Of a stretch of DNA of 64,000 nt, positions 2,873 through 16,244 are shown piece by piece. This stretch comes from Jatrophihabitans cynanchi. Lineage in GTDB: Bacteria; Actinomycetota; Actinomycetes; Mycobacteriales; Jatrophihabitantaceae. Every line of letters starts with the position of its first letter. Position 1 is the stretch's first letter. The notes below the pieces were generated by a model. It saw only the letters and a list, made by a program, of their open reading frames with translations, did no database searches and had not been told where the DNA came from. The DNA is taken from contig NZ_CP097463.1 of NCBI RefSeq assembly GCF_027247405.1, positions 620,001 through 684,000 on the forward strand. Direction: 5' to 3'. A program made the position numbers and the translations under genes.

Positions 2873-2913
2873 GTTGTGCCGTACCCACCTGGACGAGACT
2901 AGGAGCGAACGAC

Positions 2914-3366
2914 ATGACTGCCAGAACCACCACCACGATCTCGCCGGACGTAATCACCGCGGTCCGGCACCTGTACAAGGCGATGTACGCGAGCGGCGTC
3001 GCCGCCAGCACCCTGGAACTGGTGCACCTGCGGGCCAGCCAGATCAACGGCTGCAGCGCGTGCCTCGACGCCGGAGTCGAGACAGCGCAGAAGGCCGGGG
3101 TGAGCGTCGAGAAGCTGCTTGCCACCAGTGGCTGGACCGAGTCGCCGCTGTTCACCGACGCCGAGAAGGCGGCTCTCGCGCTGACCGAAGCGGCCACCCG
3201 GCTCGCCGACAACCCGGGCGCGGTCACCGACGAAATCTGGGCTCAGGCGGCACAGCACTTCGACGACAACCAGCTCAACGGCATCGTGCTCATGCTCGCC
3301 ACGACCAACTTCTTCAACCGCATCAACACCACCCTGCGGGTGCCGGCCGGTACCCGCTGGGGTTGA
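2914..3366 (+). CDS. Carboxymuconolactone decarboxylase / AhpD-like protein
   Basis: 150 residues. ATG at 2914 has AGGAG about ten bases upstream. The AhpD-type core includes the redox pair in INGCSACLDAG (CxxC) followed by a conserved acidic/His-like region, then SPLFTDAEKAALALTEA and the C-terminal FFNRINTTLRVPAG typical of the family. Such proteins act as alkylhydroperoxidase-like thiol reductases; the substrate is not known here. The gene is divergent from the ECF41-type sigma gene and has a matching promoter motif, so it is the probable target of that sigma factor. Cytoplasmic. Confidence 0.88.
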   Translation: MTARTTTTISPDVITAVRHLYKAMYASGVAASTLELVHLRASQINGCSACLDAGVETAQKAGVSVEKLLATSGWTESPLFTDAEKAALALTEAATRLADNPGAVTDEIWAQAAQHFDDNQLNGIVLMLATTNFFNRINTTLRVPAGTRWG

Positions 3367-3502
3367 GCGCCCCGAGCACCCCCGTGGTTGCCACCGTGGC
3401 TGCAGCCAGGTCGCCGGCTGGGGCGACTGGCGGGGCCGTGCCCGCCGGTCCTCAGCACCGTCGGCGGGTGAGCGTCCGGCCCGGCGCTGCCGTGATGTCC
3501 AC

Positions 3503-3529
3503 GTTTAGCGATCTTGGGTCGGCGGGTAC
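3503..3529 (+). promoter_or_regulatory. Putative SigF/SigB-type stress promoter
   Basis: GTTT at 3503-3506 and GGGTAC at 3524-3529 with a 17-nt spacer. This matches the GTTT-N15-17-GGGTA form used by group 3 stress sigma factors of actinobacteria. It lies 48 nt upstream of the DUF1206 gene. Confidence 0.6.
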
Positions 3530-3577
3530 CCCGATGGGAAGCGGCGGCTGGGGCGGCCGCGTGATCGAGGAGCGACG

Positions 3578-4384
3578 ATGACCGCAACGCTGACCGCACG
3601 GGGAGCAGCCCGCAGTGATCCGATGAAGCGGCTCGCCCGGCTCGGCCTGGCCGCTCGCGCCGCCATCTACCTGCTCATCGGGATCCTGGCGATCGCCCTC
3701 GCGCTGGGCTCGCCGCGCGGGGAGGCGGACCAGCGCGGCGCACTGCAGGCGCTCACCCGGCACACCGGTGGCACCGCCCTGGTCTGGGTGATTGCGGTCG
3801 GTCTGGCCGCCTATGCGCTGTGGCGGTTCTCCGAGGCTGCGTTCGGTGTCGTCGGGGAGGGCAACAAGGCCGTGCCGCGCCTGCAGTCGTTCGCGCGCGG
3901 CGTGATCTACACGTTCTTCGCCGTCAGCGCGTTCACGCTCCTGCTGCAGAACTCCTCCAGCAGCCAGGCCGGCCAGCAGGCGGAGTTCACGGCCAAGACG
4001 ATGCGGCACACCGGCGGCCGGTGGGCCGTCGGAATCGTCGGGGCTGTCGTGGTGATCTGCGGGCTCGTGCTGGTGTGGCAGGGGCTGACCCGTAGCTTCG
4101 AGAAGTACCTGAACCTCGGCCAGATGAGCCCGCGCACGCGCCGGGTGGTCGAGTTCCTGGGGGTGTTCGGCACGGCCGCCCGCGGCGCGGTGTTCGCGCT
4201 CGCCGGTGCCCTGGTGATCGTCGCGGCGGTCCAGTACGACCCGCGGAAGGCCACCGGCCTGGACGGCGCGCTACGGCAATTGGCGGACTCGTCGTCCTGG
4301 TCCTGGCTGCTGTATCTCATCGCCGCCGGCCTGGTCGTGTTCGGCATCTACGGTTTCGCCGAGGCGAAGTGGCGCAGGACCTGA
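3578..4384 (+). CDS. DUF1206 integral membrane protein
   Basis: 268 residues made of three repeats of two membrane helices each, the pattern of DUF1206. The repeats begin near LARLGLAARAAIYLLIGIL, LQSFARGVIYTFFAVSAF and FLGVFGTAARGAVFALAGAL, each with an Arg before the first helix. Start ATG 3578 has GAGGAG at good distance. The family function is unknown; members are often stress-induced in actinobacteria. Next gene starts one base after the stop, so DUF1206 and PAP2 are probably translated together. The SigF-like promoter just upstream suggests control by general stress. Confidence 0.87.
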   Translation: MTATLTARGAARSDPMKRLARLGLAARAAIYLLIGILAIALALGSPRGEADQRGALQALTRHTGGTALVWVIAVGLAAYALWRFSEAAFGVVGEGNKAVPRLQSFARGVIYTFFAVSAFTLLLQNSSSSQAGQQAEFTAKTMRHTGGRWAVGIVGAVVVICGLVLVWQGLTRSFEKYLNLGQMSPRTRRVVEFLGVFGTAARGAVFALAGALVIVAAVQYDPRKATGLDGALRQLADSSSWSWLLYLIAAGLVVFGIYGFAEAKWRRT

Positions 4385-4385
4385 C

Positions 4386-5201
4386 ATGGCGGCGTCCGTC
4401 GCCGCCCGACCCGCACCGGTGCGCGGCGAGGCTGCAGACCGCGTTCGGACGGGCGGCGTGTTGGCCCGGCTCCTGTCGGTTGCGGTTCTGCTATGGGCCG
4501 CGCTCTGCGGCATCGGCTACCTGCTGACGCACGCACTGCGAGCCACGTCGTTCGAACGCCTCGACGGCGCGACCGATCGCTGGCTGGCGCGCCATCGCAG
4601 CGCGCCGTGGAACGCCGTCACCCACTGGCTGACCTACGCTGCCGAGACGATCACGGTGCTGGCCGCCGGGCTGATCGTGTTGGTGACGCTGCGGCTGTAC
4701 CTGCACCGATGGCGCGAGTCGCTGTTCCTTCTCGCCGCACTCGCCGGCGAGGTCACGATCTTCCTGTGCACGACGCTCATCATCGACCGCGACCGTCCCA
4801 CCGTCACGCACCTCGACGATGCGCCGCCGACGTCGAGCTTCCCATCCGGTCATACGGCGGCGGCCATCTGCCTCTACGGGGCCGTTGCGATCATCGCCGT
4901 GCGCACGAGCAGGCGAGCCTGGCTCCGGACGGTGGCCGTGCTGGCCGCGGTGCTCGTCCCCTCCTGCGTCGCGTTCGCGCGGCTGTACCGGGGCATGCAC
5001 TACCCCAGCGACGTGATCGGCGGCGCGGTGCTCTCACTCGGTTGGCTCGCTGCGATCTGGCTCATCCTGCTGCGGCCGGGGCGAGCCGAGAGCCCGGTGC
5101 ACCCCGAGAGCCCGGCGTACCAGGAGAGCAGGGCGCACCAGGAGAGCACGGTGCACCAGGAGAGCACGGTGCACCAACTCGACGGCGACACCGGACGCTG
5201 A
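4386..5201 (+). CDS. PAP2-family membrane phosphatase with repeat tail
   Basis: 271 residues, about six membrane helices. The acid-phosphatase signature is present: IDRDRP (133-138), SFPSGHT (151-157) and YRGMHYPSD (201-209), giving the catalytic His pair and Ser/Arg set. The Lys that normally opens the first motif is not in its usual place. Likely substrates are phosphatidic acid, undecaprenyl pyrophosphate or related lipid phosphates on the outer face of the membrane. The C-terminal tail (about 234-265) is a run of six-residue units such as ESTVHQ, coded by 18-bp DNA repeats. Translationally coupled to the DUF1206 gene. Confidence 0.87.
   Translation: MAASVAARPAPVRGEAADRVRTGGVLARLLSVAVLLWAALCGIGYLLTHALRATSFERLDGATDRWLARHRSAPWNAVTHWLTYAAETITVLAAGLIVLVTLRLYLHRWRESLFLLAALAGEVTIFLCTTLIIDRDRPTVTHLDDAPPTSSFPSGHTAAAICLYGAVAIIAVRTSRRAWLRTVAVLAAVLVPSCVAFARLYRGMHYPSDVIGGAVLSLGWLAAIWLILLRPGRAESPVHPESPAYQESRAHQESTVHQESTVHQLDGDTGR
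5089..5178 (+). repeat. 18-bp tandem repeats encoding the PAP2 tail
   Basis: Five units of about 18 bp (type GAGAGCACGGTGCACCAG) follow one another at the 3' end of the PAP2 gene. The last two are identical. They encode ES(P/T/R)xHQ-type units, a charged cytoplasmic or outside tail with no obvious catalytic role. Confidence 0.85.
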
Positions 5202-5249
5202 GCGGGGCGTGCTGCGCGCATGCGTATCGCCCACCGGATGAGGCCCTCG

Positions 5250-6854
5250 CTACGCGCGGCGCCGCGCCCGGTCCCGCAGTGCGCGCCCGTCCGGGTCGTA
5301 CATGAAGCGGTAGACCGGAACCGCCCACAGCCGGTGCCGGCGCGGCAGCCGTTCGGGCGAGTGGGGACGGAGCCGGCCGGGCGGCCGGGGACCGCGACGA
5401 CCGGCGTCGTGCCAGTCCTGCAGGTCCTGGGCCCTCGCGCGCATCGTCCGATATCCCAGCAGCGGATCGAGGATGGCGCTGGTGGCCACACCGTCGTCCA
5501 GTTCGAGGTGCTCGCGCCACAACCTCAACCGCAGGTCGCGAGCGAAGACTCGCGCTCGGTCACCCAGCCCGGCCGGGTCCCTCGGTTCGCGTTCGTCACG
5601 GGTGGCGTCGAGGACCGCGCAGGACAGCTCGCTGTCGTGCGTCCAGGACCGCCGGTTGAGGTTGTCCGAGCCGATCATCGCCCAGACGTCGTCGATGACC
5701 ACCGCCTTGGCGTGGACGTACACCGGGACGCCCTCGGGGTTCTCGACGTCGTAGATCGCGAATCGCTCGCCGCCGGCGCGCCGGCAGACCGCGATCGCCT
5801 CTTCCCGGCCGACCAGGCTGGGCCAGCGCGACGCTCCCTCCTTGTCGGGAAATCGCGGGACGACGGCGATGACGTGCAGGTCGGGGTTGGCGGTGAGCGC
5901 GTCGGCAAGCAGGTCCGCGACGAACGGCGCCCAGAGGTACTGGTCCTCGATGTAGATCAGCCTGCGCGCACGGGCGAACGCCTTGCGGTACGCGTGGGCG
6001 ATGCTGCGCTCCCCCAGCGGCGCGAACGGGTACCGGCGCAGGCGAGCGGGGTAGGTGCGCAGCACCTGGACGGCGTGAGTGCCGGCCTGTGCCGGCTCGG
6101 GCTCGACCTCGGGCAGCTCACGTCCGACGAGCTTGCCGGCGTGGTAGGCCCGGTCGATCAGCATGCGCACCGGACTCGAGACGTCGAGTACCGTGCTGCC
6201 GTACCACCGCTCCCGGAAGGTGTGCTCGATGTCCGCGACCGCCGGGCCACGAACCGAGGCCTGCACATCGTGCCAGGGCGGCCGCTCGCCGTATGCCGCC
6301 GGGAACTCCATGGGCTGGGGATCGCCCTGATGCTGCCCGCCGTCGTTGCGGCTGCGGCCGAGATCGATGCCGCCGAAGAAGGCGACGTCGAGTTGCGGAC
6401 GGCCGGGGCAGCGGATCACGACGAACTTCTGGTGGTGCGATCCGGCCCGCCGGGTCCGGGAGTCGAGCAGCACCTCGCCCCCGGCGTCGGAGAGCGCGCG
6501 GGCCAGGTCGGCGTTCTCGCCCTCGCTCTGGTCGAGCCAGCCGGGCTGGGAGCGCCAGATCAGCCCGAACACCTGGACGCCCCGCGCGGCCAACTCGCCG
6601 AAGACCTCGCCGACGGACGTCCCGGGGCCGTCGAGCAACTCCTCGATGTCGCCGCGGAAATCGGCGAAGTACACCTGGTCGCCCGCGCGCAAGCGACGCA
6701 GCGCGGCCAGCAGTGCTGGGAAGTACTCGGCTCCGTCGACCAGCGGTTGGACCGCGTTTCCCGTCGACCAACCGCGGATGTCCGACGCGGGGTTGCCACG
6801 TTCTCGCTCGGTGAGGAACCACCGCTGGACGCTGGGATCCTCGGCGGTCGGCAC
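5250..6854 (-). CDS. Phospholipase D-like (HKD) protein
   Basis: 534 residues, no signal peptide. Two HKD-type halves: the first has GSHHQKFVVI (H141, K143) but lacks the Asp at the fifth place after Lys. The second is complete, VHAKAVVIDD followed by GSDNLNRRSW. The family hydrolyses or transfers phosphodiester bonds of phospholipids such as cardiolipin precursors; the true substrate cannot be told. It lies between two PAP2 phosphatases and is divergent from the second, which suggests a local set for membrane lipid turnover. Confidence 0.87.
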   Translation of the reverse strand: MPTAEDPSVQRWFLTERERGNPASDIRGWSTGNAVQPLVDGAEYFPALLAALRRLRAGDQVYFADFRGDIEELLDGPGTSVGEVFGELAARGVQVFGLIWRSQPGWLDQSEGENADLARALSDAGGEVLLDSRTRRAGSHHQKFVVIRCPGRPQLDVAFFGGIDLGRSRNDGGQHQGDPQPMEFPAAYGERPPWHDVQASVRGPAVADIEHTFRERWYGSTVLDVSSPVRMLIDRAYHAGKLVGRELPEVEPEPAQAGTHAVQVLRTYPARLRRYPFAPLGERSIAHAYRKAFARARRLIYIEDQYLWAPFVADLLADALTANPDLHVIAVVPRFPDKEGASRWPSLVGREEAIAVCRRAGGERFAIYDVENPEGVPVYVHAKAVVIDDVWAMIGSDNLNRRSWTHDSELSCAVLDATRDEREPRDPAGLGDRARVFARDLRLRLWREHLELDDGVATSAILDPLLGYRTMRARAQDLQDWHDAGRRGPRPPGRLRPHSPERLPRRHRLWAVPVYRFMYDPDGRALRDRARRRA

Positions 6855-13296: not shown

Positions 13297-14016
13297 TCAG
13301 GCGACGCCGCTGAATGCGATCAGGTGCCCAATCCCGTAGGTGACGGCCATCCCAAGAGCGCCGCCGATGACGACCCGGGCGACTGCGGCTCGGACCGGTG
13401 CACCGCCGAGGCGAGCGCTCGCCGCGCCGGTGAGGCCGAGAGCGAGCAGCACGACTGCGAAGGTCAACGGCACTCGTACCGCAGCGGGCGGGACGAGAAT
13501 CGCCAGCAGCGGCAGGAGCGCACCGAGCGTGAACGCGGCCGCTGATGCCGCGGAAGCGTGCCACGGGTTGGTGAGTTCGTCGGGATCGAGTCGCAGTTCT
13601 GCTTCGGCGTGGGCAGCGAAGGCGTCGTGTGCGGTCAGCTCGGCTGCCACCGTTGCGGCAGTTGCGGGGCTGAGTCCCTTGCTTTCGTAGATGGCGGCGA
13701 GTTCGGCGAGTTCCTCGTTCGGCTGGGTCGCCAGCTCGTTGCGCTCCTTCGCGAGCAGTGCGCGCTCGGAGTCGCGCTGACTGCTGACCGAGACGTACTC
13801 GCCCAGCGCCATCGACACCGCGCCGGCCAGTAGCCCGGCGACGCCCGCGGTCAGGATCGGGCCGCGGGCGGTCGTGGCGCCGGCGACACCGACCGCGAGG
13901 CCCGCGATGGACACGATGCCGTCGTTGGCGCCGAGGACGCCTGCCCGCAGCCAGTTCAGCTTCCCGCTCATGGCTCTCGTGTGGGGTTCGTTGCGGTGAG
14001 CGCGCCAGCTCGTCAT
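13297..14016 (-). CDS. VIT1/CCC1-type iron/manganese transporter
   Basis: 239 residues. Conserved beginning WLRAGVLGANDGIVSIAGL, then GLLAGAVSMALGEYVSVSSQ, a metal-binding cytoplasmic helix region rich in Glu (ELAELAAIYESKGL), and three C-terminal helices. These proteins carry Fe2+/Mn2+ across the membrane in exchange for protons. In bacteria they protect against metal excess. It is downstream of the arsR-like gene on the same strand after 135 bp, so it could be in its regulon. Two in-frame Met codons near the start are possible; a start at 13971 (MSGKLNW) is an alternative. Confidence 0.87.
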   Translation of the reverse strand: MTSWRAHRNEPHTRAMSGKLNWLRAGVLGANDGIVSIAGLAVGVAGATTARGPILTAGVAGLLAGAVSMALGEYVSVSSQRDSERALLAKERNELATQPNEELAELAAIYESKGLSPATAATVAAELTAHDAFAAHAEAELRLDPDELTNPWHASAASAAAFTLGALLPLLAILVPPAAVRVPLTFAVVLLALGLTGAASARLGGAPVRAAVARVVIGGALGMAVTYGIGHLIAFSGVA

Positions 14017-14151
14017 GAGAGGTCCTTTCTCAGCGCCCTTGGCCGAGGCCTACTTCGACTTCGCGCAGACGCCGCGGTTGATCGCAGCTGTGCTGTCCGA
14101 CGTGAGCGTGCACATGCGGCGTGGGCATCCGGTGACAGTCTGCGATGACGA

Positions 14152-14496
14152 TCAGTCGTGCACCGGCGCGCCGCTGACCTGGTGATCGGCTTGGAACAGT
14201 GCCTCGGCCAGCAGCGCGCGCACGTGTCCTCCGCGGAGCCGATACACCACCCGCTGGCCCTGACGGGTGCCTTCCACGAGACCGGCGAACCGCAGCTTCG
14301 ACAGGTGCTGACTGGCAACCGTCGGGCGGCAGCCGGCCACGGCGGCCAGGCTCGCCACATCCAGGTCGGCGTCGCGCAGCGCCCACAGCATGCGGACCCG
14401 GGTCGGGTCGGCCAGCAGCGTGCTGCACTCTGCGGCGAAGCAGGTCGGCGCCCGGCTGATGGACGCCGTCGACCCGGACCTTGTCGACCAGGCCAC
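14152..14496 (-). CDS. ArsR/SmtB metal-sensor regulator with replaced 5' end
   Basis: About 114 residues from a GTG at 14496, the only reasonable start. The winged helix is intact: LLADPTRVRMLWALRDADLD, AAVAGCRPTVASQHLSKLRF, then GLVEGTRQGQRVVYRL. The C-terminal part has AEALFQADHQ and ends SGAPVHD, with possible His ligands. The first ~20 residues (WSTRSGSTASISRAPTC) do not look like the family. On the other strand the same DNA encodes the start of an orphan CDF domain. This suggests the true 5' end was lost by deletion. Whether it still works is uncertain. Confidence 0.7.
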   Translation of the reverse strand: MAWSTRSGSTASISRAPTCFAAECSTLLADPTRVRMLWALRDADLDVASLAAVAGCRPTVASQHLSKLRFAGLVEGTRQGQRVVYRLRGGHVRALLAEALFQADHQVSGAPVHD

Positions 14497-14719
14497 TGCG
14501 GCGATCGCCGGTGTCGATGGCATCCACACCGTTGATGACCTGCGCATCCGCTGGATCGGGCACACCCTGCACGCCGAGGCCGACATCACAGTCGACGCCG
14601 CGGCTACCTTCGCCGAAGCCCACGACATCGCCCACCACGCCGAAGCCCACCTGCTCGCCGACGTCCGCCGCCTCACCGGCGTCACCGTCCACGCCAGCCC
14701 CGCAGGGGTGCACCAGTGA
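14459..14719 (+). pseudogene. Orphan CDF C-terminal domain (remnant of a cation efflux gene)
   Basis: From ATG 14459, 86 residues match only the cytoplasmic dimerisation domain of cation diffusion facilitators: MDAVDPDLVDQATAAIAGV, RIRWIGHTLHAEADI, then AHDIAHHAEAHLL and TVHASPAG. The whole membrane part is missing. The homology seems to start a few codons earlier (GARL), so this is more likely a relic than a designed small protein, although it could still be translated. It overlaps the start of the divergent arsR gene by 38 bp, and its stop overlaps the GTG start of the next gene. Confidence 0.7.
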
Positions 14720-15654
14720 GCGAGCACCACGACCATGACCACGGCGGTCATGACGGTCACGGCCATGACCATGCACAGTCCGACGAGGGGCACCTGAGGA
14801 TCGCGCTCGGGCTGCTGGTCGCGTTCATGCTCGCCGAGGTCGTCGTCGCGATCGCGGCCGGGTCGCTGGTGCTGCTGTCCGATGCGGGGCACATGCTGTC
14901 TGACGTCGGCGCGCTCGCCGCTGCCCTCTGGGCGCTTCGGCTGGCTCGACGACCCGCGGAAGGCGCGTGGACCTACGGCTGGAAGCGTGCCGAGATCCTG
15001 TCCGCCGCCGGCAACGGCGTCACCTTGCTCGTCGTATCCGGCGTCGTCAGCTACGAGGCGATCCGCCGCCTGGTTCACCCGCCCGCCGTGAGCGGCCTGC
15101 CTGTCCTCCTCGTCGCCCTGGTCGGGGTAGCGGTCAACATCGCCGCGACCTGGATCCTGGCTCGCGGCAACCGCGACAGCCTCAACATCAAGGGCGCGTT
15201 CGCGCACCTGCTCACCGACCTCTACGGATTCATCGGAACCGTGATCGCCGGCATCGTCATCCTCACCACCGGGTTCACCCGCGCCGACGCGATCGCGTCC
15301 CTCGTCGTCGTCGCGCTCATGTTGCACGCGTCCTGGGGGCTGCTGCGCGACTCCGGCCGGGTCCTGCTCGAAGCCGCACCGGCGCACATCGACCTCGATG
15401 ACATCCGCGCCCACCTGCTCGAGGTCGAGCACGTCCAAGACGTCCACGACCTGCACGTCTGGACCGTCACCTCGAGTCTGCCGACCCTGTCCGCGCACGT
15501 CGTGCTCGACGACGAGTGCTTCCACGACGGGCACGCACCCGAACTGCTCGACGAACTGCAGGCCTGCCTGGGTGAGCACTTCGACCTCGCCCACTCCACC
15601 TTCCAGCTGGAGCGAGCCGCCCACGCCGGCCACGAGAACGAGATGCACCCGTGA
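14716..15654 (+). CDS. CDF family Zn/Co/Cd efflux transporter (CzcD type)
   Basis: 312 residues. The N-terminus is a His-rich metal-binding tail (about 3-18, HDHDHGGHDGHGHDH). Six membrane helices follow with the binding motifs LSDAGHMLSD (helix 2) and FAHLLTDLYG (helix 5), the HxxxD/DxxxD set of zinc transporters. The cytoplasmic C-terminal domain includes HDLHVWTVTSSLPTLSAHV. It pumps Zn2+ or similar ions out by proton exchange. GTG start overlaps the stop of the orphan CDF domain (GTGA), and its own stop overlaps the next start. Confidence 0.92.
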   Translation: MSEHHDHDHGGHDGHGHDHAQSDEGHLRIALGLLVAFMLAEVVVAIAAGSLVLLSDAGHMLSDVGALAAALWALRLARRPAEGAWTYGWKRAEILSAAGNGVTLLVVSGVVSYEAIRRLVHPPAVSGLPVLLVALVGVAVNIAATWILARGNRDSLNIKGAFAHLLTDLYGFIGTVIAGIVILTTGFTRADAIASLVVVALMLHASWGLLRDSGRVLLEAAPAHIDLDDIRAHLLEVEHVQDVHDLHVWTVTSSLPTLSAHVVLDDECFHDGHAPELLDELQACLGEHFDLAHSTFQLERAAHAGHENEMHP

Positions 15655-16244
15655 CCAGCACCGCCGACGCTGCCGGCGCCGTGCTGCTGCGGCGCGGCCG
15701 CCGGCTCGAAGCGGCGACGCTCGCCTGGAACGTCATCGGCATCATGGTGCTCGCGGCCGCCGCGATCACGGCCCGCTCCGTCGCCCTGGCCGGGTTCGGG
15801 CTGGACTCCCTCATTGAGATCGGCGCCAGCACCGTCGTGCTCTGGGAACTGTCCGGCACCGGCGAAGACCGGCAACGCAGAGCCTTGCACCTGATCGCCG
15901 CCGCGTTCCTCGCCCTCGCCGCCTACCTCACCATCCAGACGGTGGCTGTGCTGGCTGCCGGCTATCACCCCCATCACAGCCGGGTCGGGATCGCGTGGAC
16001 CGCGATCACCGCGCTGGTCATGTTCGCCCTCGCATATGGCAAGAAACGTGTCGGCACCGCGCTCGGCAACCGCGTCCTCACCACCGAATCGCGTGTCACC
16101 GTCATCGACGGCCTGCTCGCCTGTGCCGTCCTGCTCGGCCTCGCATTCAACGCCGTGCTCGGCTGGTGGTGGGCCGACCCGGCCGCCGGCCTCGTCATCG
16201 TCTACTACGCGGTGCGTGAGGCCCACGCCGTCGGCAAGCATTGA
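15651..16244 (+). CDS. Short CDF-like cation transporter without C-terminal domain
   Basis: 197 residues, only the membrane part of a CDF protein: about six helices, LAGFGLDSLIEIGAS in helix 2 and VTVIDGLLACAVLLGL and DPAAGLVI later. There is no cytoplasmic ZT-dimer domain. Starts with a GTG that overlaps the stop of the CzcD-type gene by four bases, so the two are coupled. Such short relatives are common in actinobacteria. Ions and direction are not known; it may form mixed complexes or use the full CDF partner. Confidence 0.78.
   Translation: MTSTADAAGAVLLRRGRRLEAATLAWNVIGIMVLAAAAITARSVALAGFGLDSLIEIGASTVVLWELSGTGEDRQRRALHLIAAAFLALAAYLTIQTVAVLAAGYHPHHSRVGIAWTAITALVMFALAYGKKRVGTALGNRVLTTESRVTVIDGLLACAVLLGLAFNAVLGWWWADPAAGLVIVYYAVREAHAVGKH

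Follow-up and report, generated by a model that had tools for sequence, protein, structure and literature searches.

A probable single deletion inside a divergent ArsR-CDF gene pair of Jatrophihabitans cynanchi

KmtR of Mycobacterium tuberculosis is an ArsR-family sensor of nickel and cobalt, and apo-KmtR is described as a repressor of a putative CDF exporter (PMC7055735). By the same account, NmtR binds nickel through its N-terminal amine, His3 and residues of the C-terminal helix (PMC7055735). In Frankia, ArsR proteins have been placed in a possible operon with CzcD (PMC4531530). On the exporter side, a review presents TM0876-CTD as a domain of a CDF family member and mentions numerous putative CDF proteins that lack the cytoplasmic C-terminal domain (CTD), the function of which it calls unclear (PMC6465983).

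The locus described here lies in a window of 64,000 nucleotides of the Jatrophihabitans cynanchi genome, the term window denoting the whole stretch of DNA that was analysed. Relatives of this locus carry intact ArsR-CDF pairs that probably work as KmtR and its target do, a likeness drawn from the published description of KmtR. Compared with KmtR, however, the regulator in the window has no N-terminus and the operator-like site of its relatives is gone. Among solved structures the ArsR frame matches NmtR (PDB 2lkp) best (E 2.8e-12), but the N-terminal part is deleted in the window protein. Facing the regulator is a frame predicted to have the same fold as the cytoplasmic domains of MamM and TM0876 (PDB 2zzt), which were solved alone; here, unlike TM0876, the gene itself is without a membrane part. 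It is thus the reverse of the CTD-lacking CDF proteins, having a cytoplasmic domain and no membrane part.

The surviving part of the ArsR/SmtB-family regulator, comprising the winged helix, the C-terminal helix and the stop codon, occupies 14152-14418 on the minus strand. The ORF matches Pfam HTH_5 (E 2.5e-9; 37.3 bits against a cut-off of 22), HTH_20, also above its cut-off, and NCBIfam NF033788 (74.2 bits against a cut-off of 55), and so contains the winged-helix core of an ArsR/SmtB metalloregulator. Its six closest relatives are 75-94% identical over 88 amino acids, and the genome carries a single copy (E 1e-20). Homology begins at LLADPTR. Helix 1, which we take to lie ahead of this motif, and the N-terminal arm of its own subgroup are both absent from the frame. 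In an alignment with 19 relatives chosen by hand, a QVxAAVxSFA-like segment stands ahead of LLADPTR, preceded in 10 of the 19 by His-Pro; both elements are gone in the window. The C-terminal helix has Gln at a position where most of the aligned relatives have His or Gln. An AlphaFold2 model of the window protein alone is confident for residues 31-90, where blocks of ten residues average pLDDT 94-97, whereas the first three blocks, residues 1-30, have means of 47, 56 and 66, and helix 1 is not confidently rebuilt.

On the plus strand, an open frame of 109 amino acids (14390-14719) encodes an orphan CDF cytoplasmic domain. Its CDF-homologous part spans 14420-14719, and ATG 14459 is an alternative start. 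Pfam ZT_dimer is matched with E 2e-14 (53.8 bits against a cut-off of 26.7), which identifies the C-terminal cytoplasmic domain, while the ORF at 14390-14716 gave no Pfam match to the membrane domain, Cation_efflux, at E 0.01. The full-length CDF model TIGR01297 scores 51.7 bits, below its cut-off of 82.35, and is covered at positions 191-283 of 285 only. The domain presumably starts after the sixth membrane helix. Its predicted fold is a-b-b-a-b; all 50 Foldseek matches listed for the model are MamM cytoplasmic domains, with TM-scores up to 0.90 by target length, and the sequence itself matches MamM and 2zzt chains. The genome holds one copy of this domain (E 1e-3).

The two homologies meet almost base to base. 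In alignments to relatives, the last ArsR-homologous base is 14418 on the minus strand and the first CDF-homologous base is 14420 on the plus strand, where the CDF sequence (VLHSAAKQVGARLMDAVDP...) continues at 67-73% identity to six relatives. Against intact ArsR proteins the minus-strand frame is homologous only from 14418 downwards, with 92% identity over 88 amino acids to one of the closest relatives, L009. A preliminary description, made from the sequence alone, had set the loss of ArsR likeness upstream of about 14440 and the beginning of CDF sequence at about 14447. Both the loss and the homology to the cytoplasmic domain are borne out, but not the positions, since the alignments end about 20-27 bp further left. 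The junction, 14418-14420, may include a 3-bp microhomology, because the join has GCG in common with the places where the intact ArsR and CDF genes of relatives would have been broken.

Upstream of the junction, the ArsR frame runs on through 14419-14496 in what is antisense CDF sequence. Residues 6-39 of the frame as tested find their counterpart on the antisense strand of the CDF cytoplasmic domain of relatives, with at most 76% identity over 34 amino acids (L004), and GC content by codon position switches phase at the junction, from 0.84/0.49/0.86 in the ArsR core to 0.38/0.85/0.92 in the extension, the CDF domain itself having 0.81/0.44/0.88. The candidate ArsR start, GTG 14496, therefore lies within former CDF sequence, as had been proposed; other in-frame starts include ATG 14523, farther upstream, and ATG 14391, within the core. 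The proposed overlap of 38 bp between the opposed frames (14459-14496) is exact if GTG 14496 and ATG 14459 are used. No stop codon interrupts either frame.

An ancestral divergent arsR/CDF pair that lost an internal piece had been suggested as the origin of this arrangement, and comparison with relatives agrees. When both products were aligned with their homologues, an intact divergent pair was recovered for both halves: arsR diverging from a full-length CDF gene, at the same locus and in the same orientation as in the window. Such an intact orthologous pair in relatives is what marks a deletion-derived remnant. In 20 close pairs with a divergent regulator (ArsR at least 75% identical; two of them, L183 and L185, are almost the same sequence), the positions that correspond to the two sides of the junction lie 853-1082 bp apart, which gives a deletion of 0.86-1.09 kb across the pairs compared. 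Spacings of 954, 933 and 924 bp in the three closest intact pairs (L005, L009 and L008, respectively) narrow this to about 0.93-0.96 kb. Counted from the first likely start, what survives of the CDF protein begins at about residue 250-268 of the proteins of L159, L161, L162, L163 and L164.

The CDF domain is widespread, being found in 46 of 101 genomes and in 139 of 394 genomes of the class, two overlapping sets that each include the source genome and in which the open-frame column alone decided on matches without locus sequence. A scan turned up 123 relatives, and 80 named loci from it were retained. A divergent upstream ArsR is present in 27 of the 80, a rough count with one ArsR match kept per locus. 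Membrane-part sequence stands directly upstream of the domain in 79 of the 80, as judged from the adjoining 100 or so residues of the membrane part (for L221 the match is short and lies in a frame-split copy); the remaining locus, L201, begins at a contig end and has no upstream sequence. Elsewhere the family shows other damage. A decayed copy of this CDF gene, from another family, occurs at L020 1156-1779 (the same gene is in L045); by reading, it has lost most of its membrane helices and its His-rich beginning stands in another frame, while the cytoplasmic domain is open, so loss of this CDF gene can spare the C-terminal domain. In L046, L148, L149, L150 and L044/L221, the CDF gene or relatives of it are split over at least two frames, as pseudogenes or through assembly frameshifts.

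We conclude that a single deletion inside a divergent ArsR-CDF pair very probably made the locus. An ArsR/SmtB-type metal-sensing repressor on the minus strand would have been transcribed divergently from a CDF metal exporter on the plus strand, until about 0.93-0.96 kb was lost in one piece from inside the pair, the ends possibly being joined through the 3-bp GCG. On the ArsR side the break would follow Ser-Phe-Ala, and on the CDF side it would fall where the last membrane helix ends. The deletion would have taken away the N-terminus of ArsR, helix 1 included, the promoter/operator region that the two genes shared and some 250 of the roughly 350 CDF residues, and would have left a headless ArsR frame running open into antisense CDF and an open frame of the CDF cytoplasmic domain. 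The two stumps are probably remnants with little or no function, a conclusion we hold less firmly than that of the deletion itself.

The region between the genes in intact pairs offers a view of what may have been removed. Of the 20 close pairs, 19 have, at a steady place between the genes and with no more than 3 mismatches, a palindrome resembling an operator, ATATTCGCA-NN-TGCGnATAT; the pattern of this putative operator was drawn by eye from those same pairs, so the 19 are not independent. Base-shuffled intergenic DNA of the close pairs (20 shuffles each) reached 4-6 mismatches at best, and among more distant pairs 1 of 23 matched within 3. In the window, the best site at 14018-14800 has 7 mismatches and does not qualify as an operator, and nothing within 3 mismatches was found in all 64 kb, so a surviving operator was rejected. 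No site within 2 mismatches was found in the genome. That search is weak, since this limit admits just 11 of the 20 close pairs and misses L005, L009 and L008, the three closest relatives, whose sites have 3 mismatches. A sigma-70 scan of 14000-14800 found no promoter of that type; it says little, since none is expected by chance in such GC-rich sequence, and shuffles likewise gave 0.0. Ribosome-site energies at the ArsR and orphan-domain starts tested are -1.7 to -4.8 (14394, where no start codon stands, was taken in place of ATG 14391), weaker than the -6.6 of the exporter gene downstream.

This exporter gene (14716-15654, plus strand) is intact and of ZitB/CzcD type. It begins with a GTG that has AGGGG 7 nt upstream and that overlaps the orphan-domain stop by 4 bp. 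The protein matches Pfam Cation_efflux and ZT_dimer and scores 250.9 bits with TIGR01297 against the cut-off of 82.35; ZitB is its best named equivalog, below the cut-off of that model. The start of the next gene (15651-16244, plus strand) in turn overlaps the exporter stop. It encodes a CDF-like membrane protein of 197 amino acids that, like the CTD-lacking CDF proteins, has a Cation_efflux match (E 2.9e-8) and no ZT_dimer; TIGR01297 gives 31.1 bits, below cut-off, and relatives of the protein at 41-43% are found in L112, L063, L151 and L204. From the 4-bp overlap we infer that the downstream genes were once in one transcript with the truncated CDF gene. The deletion would then have cut them off from their ArsR-controlled promoter. 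On the other side of the regulator, and on the same strand as arsR, is a VIT-family (VIT1) transporter gene (13297-14016), for which the other loci compared, many with short flanks, hold no match above 38% identity.

Homologues of the exporter are found at 75% identity in L204 and at 61-70% in the genomes of seven other relatives. In those seven no CDF domain was detected beside the homologue, using a query without about 99 N-terminal residues, and in 3 of them an ArsR gene lies upstream on the same strand. A search of 396 genomes of the phylum gave no exporter match below E 1e-115 outside the source genome. The metal cluster of L204 (Flexivirga meconopsidis, about 2913-6489) comprises an ArsR-like frame, an intact copy of the CDF gene that is truncated in the window, a second ArsR-like frame, a CDF-like protein without a cytoplasmic domain and the exporter homologue; the ArsR-like frames were named by reading, and it is the only other locus compared that has these CDF genes together.

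Some observations would fit a locus that arose by deletion and whose products were nevertheless kept, an ArsR started within antisense CDF sequence being functional and controlling the czcD-type operon in a rewired manner, as the preliminary description had suggested. The frame is open, its core is under strong constraint, a helix is predicted with low confidence at residues 10-20, and residues CFAAECSTLL align where NmtR has sequence ahead of its LATPSR. Against 13 relatives, the core has a median dN of 0.081 and dS of 0.88 (0.133 and 0.93 among those relatives), values that cover the whole branch and not the time since the deletion. Such strong conservation fits a recent deletion as well as continued selection. 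The operator-like site, however, is absent, the ribosome-site energies are weak, the new N-terminus has pLDDT values of 47-66 only, and the His-Pro of about half of the aligned relatives has disappeared. We regard this rewired regulator as unlikely.

A small soluble metal-binding protein, maintained to buffer metal or to partner neighbouring CDF proteins, is quite improbable for the orphan domain. The predicted CTD fold and its matches to MamM, the retention of most conserved columns, seen in an alignment with 20 hand-chosen relatives and amounting to 50 of 55 in a separate count, and the overlap of its stop with the next start would all suit such a protein. The five deviations, on the other hand, exceed the 0-3 seen in the 11 closest intact relatives, five more distant ones having 0-6 (17 sequences chosen by hand). 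The dN of the domain, 0.216 against 0.196 for other pairs, is close to the divergence among intact relatives, and among 14 sequences it has the largest ratio to the dN of ArsR, 2.66 (next 2.14). This hints that constraint on the orphan domain may have been relaxed, on a branch that mixes time before and after the deletion. The same abutting arrangement with conserved frames in many genera would have spoken for a small CDF-domain protein, and it was sought. The membrane part adjoins the domain in 79 of the named loci, so that ArsR is unable to abut it there, and no second case was found among the loci able to show one. A designed small CDF protein was rejected as the main reading on the ground that the 80 named loci hold no other abutting case.

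It is most improbable that the missing piece is present in the organism and was lost in assembly. Among the genomes compared, the genus is represented by this genome only, but it is a single 4.5-Mb contig, 99.67% complete, the candidate joint has merely 3 bp of common sequence, and the missing CDF part was found nowhere else in the genome, the five matches (27-37% identity) being paralogues. No second full copy was found in the genome. Plasmid records gave five matches to the CDF region, none covering 80% of the query, and one short match to the VIT-like gene. Two further CDF-like genes (G000:C1:4399596-4400459 and 3360337-3360693) indicate that the cell keeps other likely metal exporters.

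An origin of the ArsR and CDF halves in different loci, brought together by recombination, is equally improbable. Trees of the single halves (20 of the 29 sequences that remained after six duplicate pairs and L237 were left out; dN and dS used 14) place the window beside L012 for the CDF domain and beside L164 for ArsR, and the exporter occurs near this CDF in L204 only, among 187 redundant loci, many with a flank of just 1.5 kb, so that its absence from the others is not proved. Support along the paths is below 50 throughout, however, and the trees are therefore not in conflict; the orientation and order are those of intact pairs. With tree support too low to use, the common origin of the halves rests on synteny. 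Barely credible is a split CDF in which the orphan domain acts in trans as metal-sensing subunit of the 197-aa protein encoded two genes downstream and ArsR, restarted and carrying a helix that antisense CDF sequence encodes, is a new regulator.

Our search found no literature on deletions with antisense overprinting, and we do not claim that none is in print. If a single deletion did shape this locus, it is a clean example of one event that beheads a regulator together with its target and leaves two opposed, overlapping open frames. It also carries a warning for annotation, as the 109-aa frame is easily called a small CDF protein and antisense sequence would be annotated as the N-terminus of the ArsR protein. 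The intact pairs, for their part, outline an actinobacterial ArsR/CDF subgroup with a recognisable operator-like site.
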